A stretch of DNA of 8,237 bases from Deltaproteobacteria bacterium. Lineage in GTDB: Bacteria; Desulfobacterota; DSM-4660; Desulfatiglandales; Desulfatiglandaceae. Position numbers and translations under genes: made by a program. The notes beneath the pieces are model-generated. The model searched no databases, was not told the DNA's origin, and worked only from the letters and a program-made list of their open reading frames with translations. Each line of letters begins with the position of its first letter. The first letter of the stretch is position 1. This document shows positions 899 to 8,237 of this stretch, piece by piece. The DNA is taken from positions 1 through 8,237 of the forward strand of contig JAFDJF010000134.1 of assembly GCA_019307645.1 (NCBI GenBank). Reading direction: 5' to 3'.

Positions 899-922
899 TT
901 CTTACATGTGATTGGGGGTCAT

Positions 923-1819
923 ATGAACATTGCGATGAAGGAAAGAATCATTCATGGCGCTTCAGAACTGTTTTCCAAACAGGGATATCCAGGTGTTCGT
1001 GTTGAAGATATTGCGGAATTTGCCGGGATCAGCAAAAAAACCATATACAATCATTTTCAGAACAAATTTTCTTTAATTGACGCTGTGATTGATTCAAATA
1101 CGTTAAGCATATGCAAAAGAATTGACGAATTCGGGTTAGATGACAGAACAAGCCATAACTGGCTTAAAAAAATATTTTTTCTTATTGTTTTTTGCTGTCA
1201 GGAGCTTACCGAATGGATATTACCCCCTGCTGAATATAGACACAACAACCTGGCAGAAAGGGTTGGAAAGTCTCTGGCGCAGATAAGACGGAAAATAATA
1301 GAAAAGTCAGAACAGTTTCTCGATCAGGACATGGGAAAGGCAACTGTTCATGATGACCTGTCCTGCCGTGCCCTGTTCAGCTTGTCCTCAGCAGTTGTGG
1401 AGGGGGTTTTTCATCTCAATGGTTTATGCCGTACCGCTGAAATAGAGCAGAATCCATTGATCTGCAACCTGAAGACCATGGCAGATGCTTATGAGATAGA
1501 AAATGCGGGTTTGCCTGCGGACCCTGAAACAGGAACCACACTCAACATTGCAGTAACCGGATCGAAGGATGCCGTCTATCGGCTTAAGACAGGTGGCCGA
1601 CCGAAAAAAATATATGCGGTAGCTGGGCGTGAAATGAGGAAGAAACCGGGAAGACACACTCGTGAAGAACTTGAACAGCGGATCAAAGAGCTGGAAAAAG
1701 AGTCTGCTGGACTCAGACAGGTTGAGCAGGATCTGCGGCAAAGCAAGGACCGGTTGTCCCTGGCTCTGGAGACAAGCGAGGCCATGCCCTGGGAACAAAA
1801 GAAGAGTTTGAAGAGATAA
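923..1819 (+). CDS. TetR/AcrR-family transcriptional regulator with C-terminal coiled coil (5' part of a frameshifted fusion)
   Basis: This reading frame gives 298 residues. Residues 5-50 form a clear TetR DNA-binding domain: helix 1 with ASELFSKQGY, then the helix-turn-helix VEDIAEFAGISKKTIYNHF (27-45) and the NK that follows. A ligand-binding helical region runs to about residue 185. Then comes a poorly conserved basic linker, and from Met238 (RKKPGRHTREELEQ) a coiled coil like the N-terminus of PAS-LuxR regulators. It ends in LALETSEAMPWE, the usual entry into a PAS domain, then stops. The ATG at 923 was chosen because GGGGGT (914-919) lies just before it; the GTG at 908 is an in-frame alternative with no clear ribosome site. 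It is probably a ligand-controlled regulator of itself and its neighbours. TetR proteins are normally about 190-220 residues, so the tail is abnormal and is explained by the shift at about 1800. Confidence 0.85.
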   Translation: MNIAMKERIIHGASELFSKQGYPGVRVEDIAEFAGISKKTIYNHFQNKFSLIDAVIDSNTLSICKRIDEFGLDDRTSHNWLKKIFFLIVFCCQELTEWILPPAEYRHNNLAERVGKSLAQIRRKIIEKSEQFLDQDMGKATVHDDLSCRALFSLSSAVVEGVFHLNGLCRTAEIEQNPLICNLKTMADAYEIENAGLPADPETGTTLNIAVTGSKDAVYRLKTGGRPKKIYAVAGREMRKKPGRHTREELEQRIKELEKESAGLRQVEQDLRQSKDRLSLALETSEAMPWEQKKSLKR

Positions 1820-1986: not shown

Positions 1987-2580
1987 ATGCTCAATAAAGA
2001 TGGCAAATGGGTCTGGTACTATGGCAAGGCCAAGGTAATCGGATGGGACAAAGAGGGGAAGGCAGAGATTTTATCAGGGATCACCATGGACATTACCGAG
2101 CGAAAGAAAGTAGAAGAAACCCTCAGGAAGAGGGAATCAAAGCTCGCCAGTCAAACTCACAAGCTCGAGGAAACCAATACGGCACTGAAAGTGCTTTTGA
2201 AAAACAGAGATGAGGATAAAAAAGAGTTTGAAGAGAAAATAATTACCAATCTGAAGGAAATGGTATTTCCCTTTATCGATAAATTAAAATCCACCCGTTT
2301 AAACGAAAGCCAGATGGTATATCTGGATATCATCAAATCACATCTTGATGACATGACAGCCCCGTTTTTGCATCAACTTTCCTCAAAGTATTCGGGTCTT
2401 ACCCCTGCTGAAGTCAAGGTCGCTGTTTTTGTAAAAGACGGAAAAACAACCAAAGAAATAGCGGGGTTGCTGAATTCGTCAGTTGATGCGGTTAATTTCC
2501 ACAGAAACAATCTCAGGAAAAAGTTTAGTCTTGTCAATTCAAAAACAAACCTTAGAACGCATCTTTTATCTCTTTCATAG
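1987..2580 (+). CDS. PAS C-terminal half with LuxR/GerE helix-turn-helix (3' part of the frameshifted fusion)
   Basis: From the first ATG this gives 197 residues, but the frame is open from 1726 and the homology starts earlier: HPDDYEKLY, typical of PAS domains, is coded at about 1906-1932, before any start codon. The visible order is the PAS/PAC core (GKWVWYYG ... GITMDITERKKVEE), a charged coiled coil, a helical spacer, then a LuxR-type DNA-binding domain in the last 65 residues (LTPAEVKVAVFVKDGKTTKE, followed by AIDAVNFHRNN-like recognition helix residues VDAVNFHRNNLRKKF). This C-terminal part matches PAS-LuxR regulators found widely in sulfate reducers. The ATG at 1987 has only AAGGTG upstream and lies in the middle of the PAS fold, so independent translation from it is doubtful. 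It most likely belonged to one protein with the TetR part. Confidence 0.7.
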   Translation: MLNKDGKWVWYYGKAKVIGWDKEGKAEILSGITMDITERKKVEETLRKRESKLASQTHKLEETNTALKVLLKNRDEDKKEFEEKIITNLKEMVFPFIDKLKSTRLNESQMVYLDIIKSHLDDMTAPFLHQLSSKYSGLTPAEVKVAVFVKDGKTTKEIAGLLNSSVDAVNFHRNNLRKKFSLVNSKTNLRTHLLSLS

Positions 2581-2860: not shown

Positions 2861-4489
2861 ATGGCACAGACATTTGATGTAATCATTATCGGGGCCGGTC
2901 CCAACGGTCTTGCGATTGGCGCCTATCTCAGCAAGGCAGGGGAGAGAGTCCTGCTGCTCGAAAAACGGCTTGAGGAAGGCGGAGGATTGATGACCGAGCA
3001 GGTGACGCTTCCCGAATACTATCACAACACCCATTCCGTTTACATGATGATGGTCGATATGGCGCCGGTGTATCCCGATTTTCAACTGGAGGAAAAATAT
3101 GATGTGCATCATGTTTTTCCCGATCTTCAGGTGGCCATGCCGCTTTCTGACGGAAGTAGCCTGTGTATATACCGGGATGTTGACAAAACCTGTGAGTCTC
3201 TGGCGCAGTTTTCAAAAAATGATGCGGAAAGCTACCGTGACCTGCACCGCCGGTGTGATGAATTCATGAAAAACATCCTCGGTCCTCAGACCTATGTGCC
3301 CATGGATGCGGCGCCTCTCGTAGCGGCCAAGATGGCGACAACGGAGCTTGGCAGGGATTTGACCGAAATTTCAGAAAAAACGCCTCTTGATATCATCTGC
3401 GATCATTTTGAAAACGACCAGGTCAGGACCCTGATGCTATATATGTGCACGCACTGGGGGCTTGACTACCGGCAGTCCGGTGTCAGCTACATGGTTCCAA
3501 TCTATTTTAACCGGATGTCAAATTACAGTCTTACAAAGGGCGGTTCCCACAGGGTTTCAAATGCCCTGTACAAATCCGTATTTGAAAACCAGGGACAAAT
3601 CAGGCAGAGCGTGGTTATTAAAAGAATTATCATTGAGAACGGTGAAGCAAAAGGCGTAGAGCTTGAAAACGGCACACAGTACCTGGCGGAAAAGGCAGTG
3701 GTGAGCACCCTCGACCCGCACCAGACTTTCCTTGACTACGTGGGCAAGGACAACCTTGACCAGGATTTTACGGAAATGATCGAAAACTACATGTGGGAAA
3801 AATGGAGCCTTGCAAACCTGCATCTTGCACTGTCCGAGCCGCCGAATTTCAAGGCCGCTGAAACCAATCCGGATATAAACAACGCGTTTATCTATGTCCT
3901 TGGATATGAAAGCATGGCAGAGCTTACAAACCACTACGACATGATGTTAAACGATGAAATGCCTGAAAATGCGGCGTTTAACTGCTGCTTTCCGAGCATT
4001 CATGACCCCTATCAGGCACCTCCCGGAAGGGCTTCCGGACTGATTTCAGAAATGGCGGTTTTTGACCTGAAAGACGGTGGAAGTGAAAAATGGCTTGACC
4101 GGAACTACAGGGCGGCGTTTGCCGAAAGGCAGCTGGCGACTCTTGAGAAATACGTTACAAATATTTCAAAGGACACCATCCTTCGAACCTACATCACCAC
4201 ACCGCGGGATATTTACAACAAATATGCCAGCATGGTAAAGGGCGGATACAAGCACGGCGCCTACCACCCTCTACAGATGGGGTATCTCAGGCCGAACCAG
4301 GACTGCTCACATTACAGAACCCCGGTGAAGAACCTGTATGTGGGAGGCGCAAGTGTATGCCCCGGGGGAATGATCATCTGGGGGCCAGGCTATAACTGTG
4401 CCAATGCCATTGCAGATGATTTCGGCATTGAAAAGTGGTGGACGGAACTTGAGATGGTAACAAAGGCGCGTGAAAATAATTATGTGTAA
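2861..4489 (+). CDS. FAD-dependent oxidoreductase, phytoene desaturase (CrtI)-like family
   Basis: A 542-residue flavoprotein of the CrtI/amine-oxidase-like NAD(P)/FAD oxidoreductase superfamily. Seen: an N-terminal Rossmann FAD motif with GAGPNG (Gly11, Gly13, Gly16) and Glu34 ending the second strand (LLLEKR), then GGG at 40-42 followed by MTEQ. Near the end are YRTPVKNLYVGGAS, PGG and GPGYNCANAI (about 485-516), the C-terminal FAD-binding block of CrtI-type proteins. It has no signal peptide or obvious membrane span. The start has a strong GGAGGG ribosome site (2851-2856). The family performs desaturations, isomerisations or saturations of isoprenoid, cyclic or carotenoid substrates, but many anaerobe members are uncharacterised and no carotenoid genes lie nearby. 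It is followed after 219 bp by a paralogue and then by dehydratase subunits, so a role in catabolism of an unsaturated or cyclic compound is more likely than pigment synthesis. Family sure, reaction unknown. Confidence 0.9.
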   Translation: MAQTFDVIIIGAGPNGLAIGAYLSKAGERVLLLEKRLEEGGGLMTEQVTLPEYYHNTHSVYMMMVDMAPVYPDFQLEEKYDVHHVFPDLQVAMPLSDGSSLCIYRDVDKTCESLAQFSKNDAESYRDLHRRCDEFMKNILGPQTYVPMDAAPLVAAKMATTELGRDLTEISEKTPLDIICDHFENDQVRTLMLYMCTHWGLDYRQSGVSYMVPIYFNRMSNYSLTKGGSHRVSNALYKSVFENQGQIRQSVVIKRIIIENGEAKGVELENGTQYLAEKAVVSTLDPHQTFLDYVGKDNLDQDFTEMIENYMWEKWSLANLHLALSEPPNFKAAETNPDINNAFIYVLGYESMAELTNHYDMMLNDEMPENAAFNCCFPSIHDPYQAPPGRASGLISEMAVFDLKDGGSEKWLDRNYRAAFAERQLATLEKYVTNISKDTILRTYITTPRDIYNKYASMVKGGYKHGAYHPLQMGYLRPNQDCSHYRTPVKNLYVGGASVCPGGMIIWGPGYNCANAIADDFGIEKWWTELEMVTKARENNYV

Positions 4490-4708
4490 GGCAGGCATTT
4501 TGTCTGTTGAAACGTTGAAAAATATGAAGCTGTCCATTCTTGGGTTTTTGATGAATCTCTCCCGATAGTTCAGAGAGCCTAAACGTCCGGTGGACTTTTA
4601 ACCAAATCAAAATTCCAGTCATGGTTCAAAGCTTCCTCCAGGCAGTAGGGGACCCTCGAACCCTTGAAACCTCGAACCCTTGAACCCTGACTTTTATAAG
4701 GAGGCATT
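4490..4708. other. Intergenic region between the two oxidoreductase genes
   Basis: 219 bp with no supported gene. It holds a weak CTCTC/GAGAG stem (4557-4577), a minimal GTCC-GGT-GGAC stem followed by TTTT (4585-4599) that could be a very weak terminator, and the tandem repeat at 4654-4684. The gap is long for an operon, but the gene order and direction still fit one transcript. Just before the next gene is AAGGAGG, a strong ribosome site. Confidence 0.45.
4654..4684. repeat. Short tandem direct repeat, 16-bp period
   Basis: Two copies of CCTCGAACCCTTGAA (4654-4668 and 4670-4684), period 16 bp, identical over 15 bases, followed by a partial AACCCTGA unit. Such GAACCCTTGAACC runs occur as small intergenic repeats in related genomes (from general knowledge, not checked here). 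It ends about 15 bp before the ribosome binding site of the second oxidoreductase gene. No function is known. Confidence 0.7.
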
Positions 4709-6451
4709 ATGGCAGACCAGACATATGATGCGGTAATCGTTGGCGGCGGAAATAAAGCCCTGCTGCTTGCTTTATATCTTATCAAATACGCGGGGATGAG
4801 TGTTGGAATATATGAAAGAAGGCACGAGATCGGGGGATGTCTCTGTACTGAAGAGATATGTGCTCCCGGATTCCGCGGAAATCCCCACGCAAACATAATC
4901 CTGCCCTGGTATTATGCGCCCATATACCGGGATTTCCCCGAGTTCTGGGACTATGGAGCCCAATACGAGCAGTATATCGTCAGTGACGGATTTGTGTTTA
5001 AGGACAAGGAAAACTGTCTGGCCATATACAGCGACAAGCATGATCCCAATCAGGAAAAAACCTGCACAGAGATTGCACGGTTTTCAGAAAAAGATGCCCA
5101 GACATGGCGCAAACTCTGGGATTTGGAACAGAGTGACGCCTACAGGAGAGTAATGATAGACAGCATATTCAATCCTCCTGAACTTATGGGACATGAGTCC
5201 ATAGCCAACCGGCAGATGGAAGTATACCCCATGCTGATTGAGGCGGGCCTGGATCCTGACGAGCTGATGTTGATGGCAAGTGCCCTGCGCGCATGCAGAG
5301 AATTGTTTGAAAGTCCGGAGCTTCAGTCCTGCATCCTGCGGTTTAGTGTTTCCAGTGTAACGGATATTAACGAACCGGGCTGCGGCAGCCCCATGGTGCT
5401 TGGTCATGCTACTACTTTGCCCACAATAGGGTTTAACCGGGGCGGTACCCATATGATAGCGCACGCAGCCCACCAGCTTCTCAATCAAATGGGCTGTAAA
5501 TTTCACATCAACAAACACGTGGAAAAGGCTATCATAGAAAACGGCAGGGCAACAGGCATACGCCTTTCAGACGGATCAGAGGTAAAGGCAAACCGTCTGG
5601 TGGTAAGCACCCAGGCTCCGTGGCAGCTTTTGTTTGATTTGATAGGCGAAGAATATGTTCCGGAGAAAACCGCAAAACGGGTCAAGTTGATAGACAGGTC
5701 TTTCGGATGTCTCATGTGGTACAGCATGGCCGTGCATGAGGCCCCGAAATACAAGGCTGAGGCATTTAACCCGGACATTCATGAGTGCATGTGGCTGGGG
5801 CTTCAGCCTGATCCGGACCCCATGCATATCGCAAGGGAGTGCATGTATGAAAAACTTCATAAATTCCCGCCTCTGGAGGACTATGCTTCTACGGTATGGT
5901 GCCATAGCCTTGTTGATCCGACCTATGCACCGCCGGGAAAACATGTGGTTCAGAATGAACAGCTTGGCCCTCCTGCGTCCGCATTTTCCGAAAAGGAATG
6001 GCTTGAAATCAAGGACCGGTACGCAGATGAGCTTATGAAGATCTGGGAGGACTACGCACCGAACATGACCTGGGACAATGTGATCGGTGTGGATGCGAAC
6101 ACCCCCTATGATGCAAACCGTCAGTTGAACCTGAGCCCGGACGGCACAATGGCCGGGTGTGACCGCACGCCTTATCAGGTGGGGGGAATGAGACCGACAC
6201 CGGAACTGGCAAACTATAGAACTCCCATAGAAAACCTTTATGGGACGGGCGGAGCATGGCATCCCGGGTCAAATGCAGGATCCGCAGAATCGTACAACTG
6301 CTTTAAAGCCATTGCAAAAGATATGGGATTAAACGGCCCCTGGGGAGGTGGCGATGAACTTGAAGATCCTGAATCGCTGGTTGAATCGGTGTGGGCCATA
6401 AGAAACAGGCTGAGGGAATCTGCGACGGATACGGAAAAATACAGGAAATAG
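4709..6451 (+). CDS. FAD-dependent oxidoreductase, CrtI-like family, paralogue of the upstream gene
   Basis: A 580-residue flavoprotein related to the product of 2861-4489: both share an E(K/R)R..E.GG block, a D.Y.APPG block, a YRTP(V/I).NLY..GG C-terminal block and a conserved P.(F/Y)KA....NPDI stretch in the middle. The N-terminal dinucleotide motif is GGGNKA (12-17), so the third glycine of GxGxxG is alanine. Glu36 is present. Two cysteines follow (GGCLC, 44 and 46) and may be functional. The C-terminal block is NLYGTGGAWHPGSNAG (about 508-523). AAGGAGG precedes the ATG at good spacing. The protein is probably cytosolic. The pairing of two paralogues suggests a heteromeric enzyme or two successive steps on one substrate (inference). 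Older annotation may call it phytoene dehydrogenase or NAD(P)/FAD oxidoreductase; the true substrate is unknown. Confidence 0.9.
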   Translation: MADQTYDAVIVGGGNKALLLALYLIKYAGMSVGIYERRHEIGGCLCTEEICAPGFRGNPHANIILPWYYAPIYRDFPEFWDYGAQYEQYIVSDGFVFKDKENCLAIYSDKHDPNQEKTCTEIARFSEKDAQTWRKLWDLEQSDAYRRVMIDSIFNPPELMGHESIANRQMEVYPMLIEAGLDPDELMLMASALRACRELFESPELQSCILRFSVSSVTDINEPGCGSPMVLGHATTLPTIGFNRGGTHMIAHAAHQLLNQMGCKFHINKHVEKAIIENGRATGIRLSDGSEVKANRLVVSTQAPWQLLFDLIGEEYVPEKTAKRVKLIDRSFGCLMWYSMAVHEAPKYKAEAFNPDIHECMWLGLQPDPDPMHIARECMYEKLHKFPPLEDYASTVWCHSLVDPTYAPPGKHVVQNEQLGPPASAFSEKEWLEIKDRYADELMKIWEDYAPNMTWDNVIGVDANTPYDANRQLNLSPDGTMAGCDRTPYQVGGMRPTPELANYRTPIENLYGTGGAWHPGSNAGSAESYNCFKAIAKDMGLNGPWGGGDELEDPESLVESVWAIRNRLRESATDTEKYRK

Positions 6452-6519
6452 CATTTGATACAACAGACACGTTAGGATTCTACGGAAAGGTGCGGAGCTT
6501 TTGAAAAAGGGAGAAAAAC

Positions 6520-7665
6520 ATGGACACAAATATGCAGTCAACGGCATTCCGGGAACTGGCCGAAGCAGCTGAGACCCTTGAAAATCAGTCGTTAAGGAGC
6601 TGGAAACAGGAAGGCGGCAAGGTGATGGGCTATTTCTGTTCCTCCATGTCAGAGGAGGTTCTCCTGGCCGCAGGTTTTCTGCCTTTCCGGATGCGGGCAA
6701 CCGGAAGCACCGGCACAGAACTTTCCGATGCACTTGTAAGCAGCATCAACTGCAGCTTCATGCGGCACTGCCTGAACGCCGGCCTGAGTGGAAGTCTTGA
6801 TTTCCTTGACGGCCTGATTGTACCCAACAGCTGTGACAACATCCGTCGTATCTATGATCACTGGATACGAAAAAAGGACACCCCTTTTGTTCGGATGGTG
6901 AGCCTTCCCAGAAAAGCAGGAGAATCACAAATCGCCTGGTACAGGGAAGAAATGGTCAATGTAATGACAGCCATGGAAGAGCATCTTAACATCAAAATAT
7001 CAGACAATGACCTCAGGGAGGCAATAAAGCTGCGCAATGAAACCCGCCGTCTGCAAAGAGCGCTATATGATCTCAGAAAGACGGAAAACCCACCCATTAC
7101 CGGCTCTGAAACACTGACTGTCATTGTTGCCGGTACGGCCATGCCGCGGGGCCACTATAATGATCTGCTCAAACAGTTACTGGCAGACCTGCAGGGTACC
7201 CAGGGAAGCGGAAACTACCAGGCCAGGCTGATGATAATCGGCGGCGAACTGGATAATCCGGAATATCTGAAAGTGATTGAGGATCTGGGGGGCCTTGTGG
7301 TGACGGACTCTTTGTGCTTTGGCTCCAGAATGTTCATGATGGATGTTGATGAAGATGAAAAAGACCCATTGACCGCCATTGCGCGTTACTATGTTGCAGA
7401 GCGTCCCACCTGCCCGCGTGTGTTCGGAATGTATGAGAAGCGGGCTGAATTCATCAAAAAAATGATAGAGGACTTCAACGTGGATGGCGTTATTTTTCAA
7501 CGGCTTTCCTTCTGCGACCTGTGGGGAATCGAGCAGTTTACCCTGAAAAATGAATTTGAGGACTGGAATATTCCATTGATAATGCTTGACCGGGAATACA
7601 ACTTAAGCGGCGTAGGCCAGCTCCGGACAAGGGTGCAGGCATTTCTGGAAACCATTGGGAGGTAG
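6520..7665 (+). CDS. 2-hydroxyacyl-CoA dehydratase family subunit (HgdB/BcrC/FldC-like)
   Basis: A 381-residue iron-sulfur subunit of the 2-hydroxyacyl-CoA dehydratase / class I benzoyl-CoA reductase superfamily. Family signs are YFCSSMSEEVLLAAGFLPFR (38-57), the PNSCDNIRR motif (102-110), a central segment GTAMPRGHYND, FQRLSFCDLW near residue 332, and a C-terminal PLIMLDREY...GVGQLRTRVQAFLE. Cys40, Cys105 and Cys332 are the likely ligands of the [4Fe-4S] cluster; Cys78 and Cys84 are extra. Known members use one-electron, ATP-driven ketyl-radical chemistry to remove water from 2-hydroxyacyl-CoA, or to reduce aromatic-CoA rings, and are strictly anaerobic. The length fits the smaller subunit. 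The ATG at 6520 has GGGAG (6506-6510) upstream; an in-frame ATG at 6532 is an alternative. The partner subunit starts 3 bp after the stop. No activator (HgdC/BcrA-like ATPase) is present, so it must be coded elsewhere or beyond the right edge. Confidence 0.9.
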   Translation: MDTNMQSTAFRELAEAAETLENQSLRSWKQEGGKVMGYFCSSMSEEVLLAAGFLPFRMRATGSTGTELSDALVSSINCSFMRHCLNAGLSGSLDFLDGLIVPNSCDNIRRIYDHWIRKKDTPFVRMVSLPRKAGESQIAWYREEMVNVMTAMEEHLNIKISDNDLREAIKLRNETRRLQRALYDLRKTENPPITGSETLTVIVAGTAMPRGHYNDLLKQLLADLQGTQGSGNYQARLMIIGGELDNPEYLKVIEDLGGLVVTDSLCFGSRMFMMDVDEDEKDPLTAIARYYVAERPTCPRVFGMYEKRAEFIKKMIEDFNVDGVIFQRLSFCDLWGIEQFTLKNEFEDWNIPLIMLDREYNLSGVGQLRTRVQAFLETIGR

Positions 7666-7668
7666 GTC

Positions 7669-8237
7669 ATGGATTTGAACAAGCAAAAAGGACTCGAGCG
7701 CGTGTTTGAGGAGATCGCCACCTATGAAGCGATTGTTGAGATGTTGGAGTCAAATCCGGATGAAATGTCCCATCTCCATCTGCCGTTGGCAAAAGTCGTC
7801 CTCTGGCAGCATAAAAAGACCGTGGAATGCATCGAAAAAGGCAAACCCCTTGCAGCCTCCTATTTTACAAACGCACCGGAAATCCACACGGCCATGGACA
7901 TCCACTGGTACCACATTATTGCCCAGGCCTTTGGCGGTGGAATGGAAAACCCTCATACAATGGAGGATCTCGAAGGCGTCGATTCCATGGCTGTTGCCAC
8001 GGATGTCTGCACGCTCCTCAGGCTGGCCCTGTTTTATTTAGATGCAGGCATTCTGCCAAGGCCCACTGTTGTGGTGCCATTACTGGAACCATGCGACGGT
8101 GTGATCGGGCTTCATGAGGCGGTGCGGAATCACAAATTGTGGCGTGGTCTGCCTTTTTTCTCCCCTGACCCTCCCTACTACAATGATGAGAGAAGCATCG
8201 ATTACTTTGCCGATGAATTGCGGCAGATGGTGGATTT
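7669..8237 (+). CDS. 2-hydroxyacyl-CoA dehydratase family subunit, second partner (3' end cut by window)
   Basis: The frame is open from the ATG at 7669 to the window end (189 codons), so the gene is partial. The ribosome site GGGAGGT (7658-7664) overlaps the stop of the upstream subunit, a sign of translational coupling. Family-like features are a helical N-terminus (LERVFEEIATYEAIVEML), the GKPLAASYFTNAPEIH segment about 60 residues in, a TDVCTLLR stretch (Cys114), and PLLEPCDGVIGLHE, where Cys142 followed by Asp matches the CD motif that holds the [4Fe-4S] cluster. These subunits are usually about 400-430 residues, so roughly half is missing. It should form a heterodimer with the preceding protein and supply its own cluster and the second half of the active site. 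The subtype (dehydratase or ring reductase) cannot be decided from this part. Confidence 0.85.
   Translation, partial: MDLNKQKGLERVFEEIATYEAIVEMLESNPDEMSHLHLPLAKVVLWQHKKTVECIEKGKPLAASYFTNAPEIHTAMDIHWYHIIAQAFGGGMENPHTMEDLEGVDSMAVATDVCTLLRLALFYLDAGILPRPTVVVPLLEPCDGVIGLHEAVRNHKLWRGLPFFSPDPPYYNDERSIDYFADELRQMVD

Follow-up and report, generated by a model that had tools for sequence, protein, structure and literature searches.

A CtmAB-like flavoprotein pair beside a histidine-type relative of benzoyl-CoA reductase: candidate enzymes of one anaerobic pathway in a Desulfatiglandaceae bacterium

The flavoproteins CtmA and CtmB of Castellaniella defragrans are two CrtI-family proteins with 27% mutual identity, and both are needed for the oxygen-free conversion of limonene to perillyl alcohol (PMC4109377, accessible part). 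The sterol delta-24 desaturase of Sterolibacterium denitrificans is 34% and 38% identical to CtmA and CtmB, and carries its flavin covalently on the His of the motif G-F-L/R-X-N/S-T/L-H-A, which is also present in both CtmAB subunits (PMC11061730, accessible part). A different group, the benzoyl-CoA reductase/hydroxyacyl-CoA dehydratase (BCR/HAD) superfamily, includes BzdNO, the class I benzoyl-CoA reductase of the bzd type, and HadBC, the 2-hydroxyisocaproyl-CoA dehydratase. Here we describe four adjacent genes, named A, B, N and O, that bring relatives of both groups together on contig JAFDJF010000134.1 (assembly GCA_019307645.1) of a Deltaproteobacteria bacterium of the family Desulfatiglandaceae; the window is the whole stretch analysed, 8,237 nucleotides in length. 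Linkage of A-B with N-O is recurrent, not universal, and we give an even chance to the reading that A-B and N-O are two enzymes of a single anaerobic route by which an isoprenoid or alicyclic hydrocarbon-like compound is broken down.

The gene set and its flavoprotein pair

The open reading frames (ORFs) of the window place the four genes on the plus strand in one direction, in the order A, B, N and the start of O:

2861-4489, plus strand: A, 542 aa, a CrtI/CrtO-family flavoprotein and CtmA-like subunit, with His58 as predicted covalent flavin site
4709-6451, plus strand: B, 580 aa, a CrtI/CrtO-family flavoprotein and partner subunit, with the motif GFRGNPHA containing His60
6520-7665, plus strand: N, 381 aa, a PF06050 subunit with double-cubane cysteines C40, C78, C105, C266, C298 and C332
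7669-8237, open at the window end, plus strand: O, first 189 aa, the partner PF06050 subunit, with C114 and C142 at two catalytic-cluster ligand positions

The intergenic gaps measure 219 bases (A/B), 68 (B/N) and 3 (N/O), and the co-direction that an earlier note on this DNA had read from the letters holds. A purine-rich, Shine-Dalgarno-like stretch, as judged by eye, lies ahead of each of the four start codons. The window edge truncates O at about 44% of its expected length; the four-gene observation is confirmed nonetheless, and the fourth gene is real though cut. Chance is ruled out because of the profile scores and the recurrence of the gene set elsewhere. Separately, short direct repeats with an 8-base spacing lie between A and B, at 4654-4685 (plus strand).

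The two flavoprotein genes of the window are adjacent members of the CrtI family, and A and B share 27% identity. Both subunits keep the Asn and His of the flavin-His motif, with flanking residues that vary, most in A: B reads GFRGNPHA, and A reads EYYHNTHS with His58 in the motif column. The His is kept in 120/120 of the best 120 of 1025 B matches. Adjacency of the two genes is common among relatives as well, with A at most 1 kb from B in 7 of 11 B loci, and with one of the remaining four at a contig end. These loci (handles beginning with L; genomes begin with G) carry B at 50% identity or more, with L043-L045 and L060-L067 left out as duplicates of longer stretches; the picking of ORFs in GC-rich loci hid some genes, so that the B of G002:C202 (70%, A adjoining) is absent from the 11.

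By motif and architecture, A-B looks like a CtmAB-like covalent-flavin pair, and it probably works like a CtmAB-type enzyme. The two CrtI-like flavoproteins of the earlier note stand as a pair with CrtO/CrtI matches, though the flavin-His motif points to a recognised pair type (CtmAB/delta-24 desaturase) rather than generic CrtI. The likeness to CtmAB covers an adjacent CrtI-family pair about 27% identical to each other, a flavin-His motif in each subunit and a LuxR-type regulator nearby (PMC4109377 and PMC11061730, accessible parts). The differences lie in the setting. In the window, A-B is followed by an ATP-type iron-sulfur enzyme, and unlike CtmAB it has no CtmE/CtmF-like ferredoxin or reductase found in the window by ORF and profile scans; CtmAB belongs to a denitrifier, whereas the nearest relatives here are genomes of the Desulfobacterota type, the window's nearest genome loci coming from Desulfobacteraceae-type and other metagenome-assembled genomes. 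With the sterol delta-24 desaturase the pair shares an alpha/beta flavoprotein make-up, the His-linked flavin motif and, by prediction, oxygen-free allylic chemistry (PMC11061730, accessible part); the genomic setting differs, and the window pair could hydroxylate or desaturate.

A and B might instead serve pigment synthesis as desaturases or ketolases of the carotenoid type (CrtO/CrtI), with no relation to N-O. The best NCBIfam match is indeed CrtO, the JGI names read beta-carotene ketolase, and the predicted model of B (mean pLDDT 92) has the carotenoid desaturase 4rep as its closest solved fold. However, the CrtO profile NF045689 gives A 217 bits and B 159 bits against a cut-off of 1000, 4rep has a Gly where A and B have the flavin-position His, and no carotenoid biosynthesis gene was found among the 60 neighbour proteins scanned. 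On the scores far under cut-off and the His at the flavin position, we rank carotenoid synthesis last and consider it very improbable. In some of the more distant B-type proteins, Cys replaces the flavin-linking His: L031 8381-10051 (NTCS), L032 8689-10371 (NQCS) and L039 12469-14238 (NPCA).

The iron-sulfur enzyme N-O

The PF06050 domain and fold are found in both subunits, for O by way of full-length relatives. N matches PF06050 with 304 bits. The O fragment alone matched no Pfam or NCBIfam model, and over its length it shows 67% identity to L029:4083-5381 and 73% to L050:9272-10570, both of them full-length PF06050 proteins; O relatives are predicted to take the HadB/BzdO fold. N has all six Cys ligands of the [8Fe-9S] double cubane of BzdN, as do 120/120 of the best 120 of 3164 N matches. 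In O, C114 and C142 match two catalytic-cluster ligands, and the third [4Fe-4S] Cys is a His in 120/120 full-length relatives (the best 120 of 529 O matches), the window O ending before that site. Ile84 and Leu116 of O occupy the columns of the catalytic Glu65 and the thioester-binding Tyr97, in an alignment of about 15% identity.

The curated models agree with neither described enzyme. N-O falls below all BCR model cut-offs (N 173 bits versus 454 for BzdN) and misses the HadBC models, with N at 167 bits against a cut-off of 700 and the scanned His-type O relatives at 44 or less against 750. The best NCBIfam score of N, 205 bits, is for the double-cubane cluster protein (DCCP), whose cut-off is 350. 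DCCP is built of one chain type, whereas N has a separate partner subunit, O. Membership in BzdNO was rejected on the curated scores and the residues of O (His for Cys380, Glu65 and Tyr97 changed), and membership in HadBC likewise on curated scores and O residues. The earlier note's label, benzoyl-CoA reductase/2-hydroxyacyl-CoA dehydratase-like, holds at the level of the PF06050 superfamily; by the curated cut-offs N-O is neither of the two enzymes, and the O family lacks residues of both. N-O forms a branch of its own in the BCR/HAD superfamily, in which N is of the double-cubane type and O carries the His substitution; the libraries searched contain no curated model for it.

With BzdNO, N-O shares the full set of [8Fe-9S] ligands in N, the fold of O relatives and an ATPase activator beside relatives; it differs in the His for Cys380, in lacking Glu65 and Tyr97, and in the one activator gene seen versus two (BzdPQ). 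With HadBC it shares the fold of O and, beside relatives, a single activator. In a rival explanation, N-O would be a radical 2-hydroxyacyl-CoA (or other hydroxyacyl-CoA) dehydratase, removing water from a hydroxylated CoA ester made through A-B and using no net electrons. We find this unlikely, as N retains all six double-cubane cysteines, two of which are missing from HadC, and as the O family lacks equivalents of the Glu65 and Tyr97 common to HadB and BzdO; HadB also retains the third Cys.

Linkage of the two pairs in other genomes

The set recurs at four loci outside the window, in differing gene orders. L047 has A-B-activator-N-O, with an N of a deeper branch and an A and B only 34% identical to the window's. 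L029 has enoyl-CoA hydratase-N-O-B-A-acyl-CoA dehydrogenase-hydroxyacyl-CoA dehydrogenase-N-O, and L046 has B-Fer4 protein-N, with A and O off this short contig. L072 holds A-B plus two N-O pairs within about 14 kb. Two more contigs (35,176 and 119,293 bases) seemingly carry relatives of both N and B; a match on a 1,934-base contig was dropped as too short for both. A survey of the kind proposed in the earlier note finds the set repeatedly, and not everywhere. At 1509-2794 of L047 (minus strand), O is split over two frames, which may be an assembly error.

Of the 194 genomes in the order to which G004 belongs, four have N (E at most 1e-120), and all four are among the eight with B (E at most 1e-70), for which a random draw has a probability of 1.2e-6, kinship ignored. 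N (E at most 1e-110) is rare, being found in 5/395 genomes in the phylum of G004 and 2/282 in that of G002 and G003. Ten genomes carry N at 46% identity or above, and A/B-like proteins (E at most 1e-30) are present in nine of them, the exception being G551, which has a Cys-type O; four of those nine were reached through A, and the independent count is 5/6. Among 15 N clusters (nine genomes), four lie within 10 kb of A-B versus 0.39 expected (P 0.0007). These cluster counts are hand-made and approximate: contig breaks are ignored, the window and Cys-type N are excluded, and the G128 cluster is included with its O off contig.

A further rival holds that A-B and N-O serve separate pathways of one catabolic gene region, their adjacency being loose clustering with no shared substrate. 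Eight of the 11 B loci have no His-type N within 10 kb and seven have no N at all; most N clusters likewise stand apart from A-B, and genomes hold many paralogues of each. Against this stand the four loci at which the same families are joined in differing orders, and the nesting of all four N genomes within the eight B genomes, which persists when the genomes reached through A are left out (2/2 N genomes within 6 B genomes of 192; probability 0.0008, kinship ignored). We judge the separate-pathway account improbable, at a level with the dehydratase account.

Several observations nevertheless weigh against one shared pathway. For 11 of the 15 N clusters there is no A-B inside 10 kb, and N-O is missing from the vicinity of the closest A-B relatives, L024 with L023 (79%) and L027 (75% for B); L023 apparently continues L024, by a 124-base overlap with one mismatch. 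G001 and G004, two of the four N genomes, were reached through A. The A-B-linked N-O of L025 is HadBC-like, of the Cys type. No activator lies between B and N or elsewhere inside the window, and no gene specific to a substrate turned up. The assignment of A-B to the CtmAB/delta-24 desaturase type rests on motif and architecture, with A retaining only the NTH core of the published motif. As an observation of its own, L025 3976-11556, where A-B stands with the HadBC-like Cys-type N-O, shows these flavoproteins with an iron-sulfur partner of another kind.

A search of a licence-limited library, which is not proof, gave no paper joining a pair of the A-B type with one of the N-O type, and the accessible parts of the NaphS2 paper (PMC2988823) and the limonene methanogenic paper (PMC12583861) contain no link between the two. 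The benzene 'Magic' cluster, which at first looked related, was set apart by description only: the accessible part of PMC13101534 names other FAD-binding and Fe-S proteins. A plasmid collection gave only matches of 24-28% identity (20 records).

Neighbouring genes and the proposed pathway

Upstream of A lie two regulator ORFs, in different frames:

908-1819, plus strand: TetR-type regulator with a C-terminal extension, by a TetR_N match
1987-2580, plus strand: C-terminal part of a PAS/LuxR-type regulator, by profile match

L047 also has a TetR gene upstream of A-B. Regulators similar to the PAS/LuxR-type one lie next to A-B in L025 and L030 and, in L071, next to an N-O pair of the Cys type. 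In L025 and L030 the relative is a single regulator of 528 or 627 aa, whose C-terminal part matches the second ORF only; ORF 908-1819 may be a separate gene, or the two may be a regulator pair broken by frame. Further upstream, at 110-634 and on the strand opposite to the operon (minus), is a SnoaL_4-type small protein, weakly similar to ring-hydroxylating dioxygenase beta subunits.

Beside relatives, part of what the earlier note had proposed to look for past the window end is present, namely an activator ATPase and an enoyl-CoA hydratase; no CoA ligase or transferase was found among the 60 neighbour proteins scanned. An activator of the BadF/BcrA family adjoins N in L047, L048, L049, L053 and L070; the family is present in 5/5 genomes, a count of little weight, since 10/14 control genomes were matched as well. 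A Fer4 protein stands immediately ahead of N in L046 and L050. After A-B, L023 carries two thiolases, two OB-fold partners, an aldehyde:ferredoxin oxidoreductase (AOR) and an alcohol dehydrogenase (ADH), and L070 reads activator-N-O-CdhC-like-ADH-AOR, without A-B. AOR also occurs on the L029 and L050 stretches, and the contig of L029 additionally encodes an outer membrane protein of the FadL/TodX type (L058). A small CdhC-like protein (PF03598, about 255 aa) adjoins His-type N-O in L048 (51-812), L070 (3081-3845) and L072 (7750-8532).

These neighbours are consistent with a route in which the substrate is hydroxylated at an allylic position, oxidised to an acid and activated with CoA, the CoA ester then being reduced at low potential; the step order and the kind of substrate are what we infer. 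The earlier note's hint at a terpenoid or alicyclic CoA ester is supported. From the recurrent linkage of A-B and N-O we draw, at about even chance, a single anaerobic pathway for isoprenoid or alicyclic compounds. In such a pathway, A and B would form a heteromer with one covalent flavin per subunit and would carry out an oxygen-free oxidation of an allylic C-H, either hydroxylating it with water or desaturating the substrate. In relatives, ADH and AOR may then turn the alcohol into an acid, which would become the CoA ester. N-O would be an archerase-type enzyme, fired by the ATPase activator and ferredoxin: N may store very low-potential electrons on its [8Fe-9S] double cubane, and O, whose altered iron-sulfur site has one His besides two Cys, may there hand them on to the CoA ester; the bond reduced would most likely be a double bond that is conjugated or part of a ring.

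A bolder proposal, which we put forward tentatively and think less probable than the shared pathway itself, is that N-O pairs of the His type form a clade that makes up a third functional branch within the BCR/HAD superfamily. Its catalytic [4Fe-4S] cluster would be held by one His and two Cys, shifting potential and chemistry, and the double cubane and ATP would drive reduction of a terpenoid-derived CoA ester supplied by a covalent-flavin allylic oxidase. Desulfobacterota and, going by how database relatives are named, also Dehalococcoidia and further sediment bacteria would then have an undescribed anaerobic terpenoid/steroid route.

Very few enzymes are known to attack isoprenoids without oxygen, and most of what is known of ATP-driven low-potential reductases concerns aromatic rings and the fermentation of amino acids. 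The His-for-Cys exchange at the catalytic cluster poses a concrete, testable question on how this superfamily tunes its chemistry, and a recurrent operon uniting the two kinds of enzyme would indicate that anoxic settings harbour a pathway for steroids or unsaturated terpenoids.
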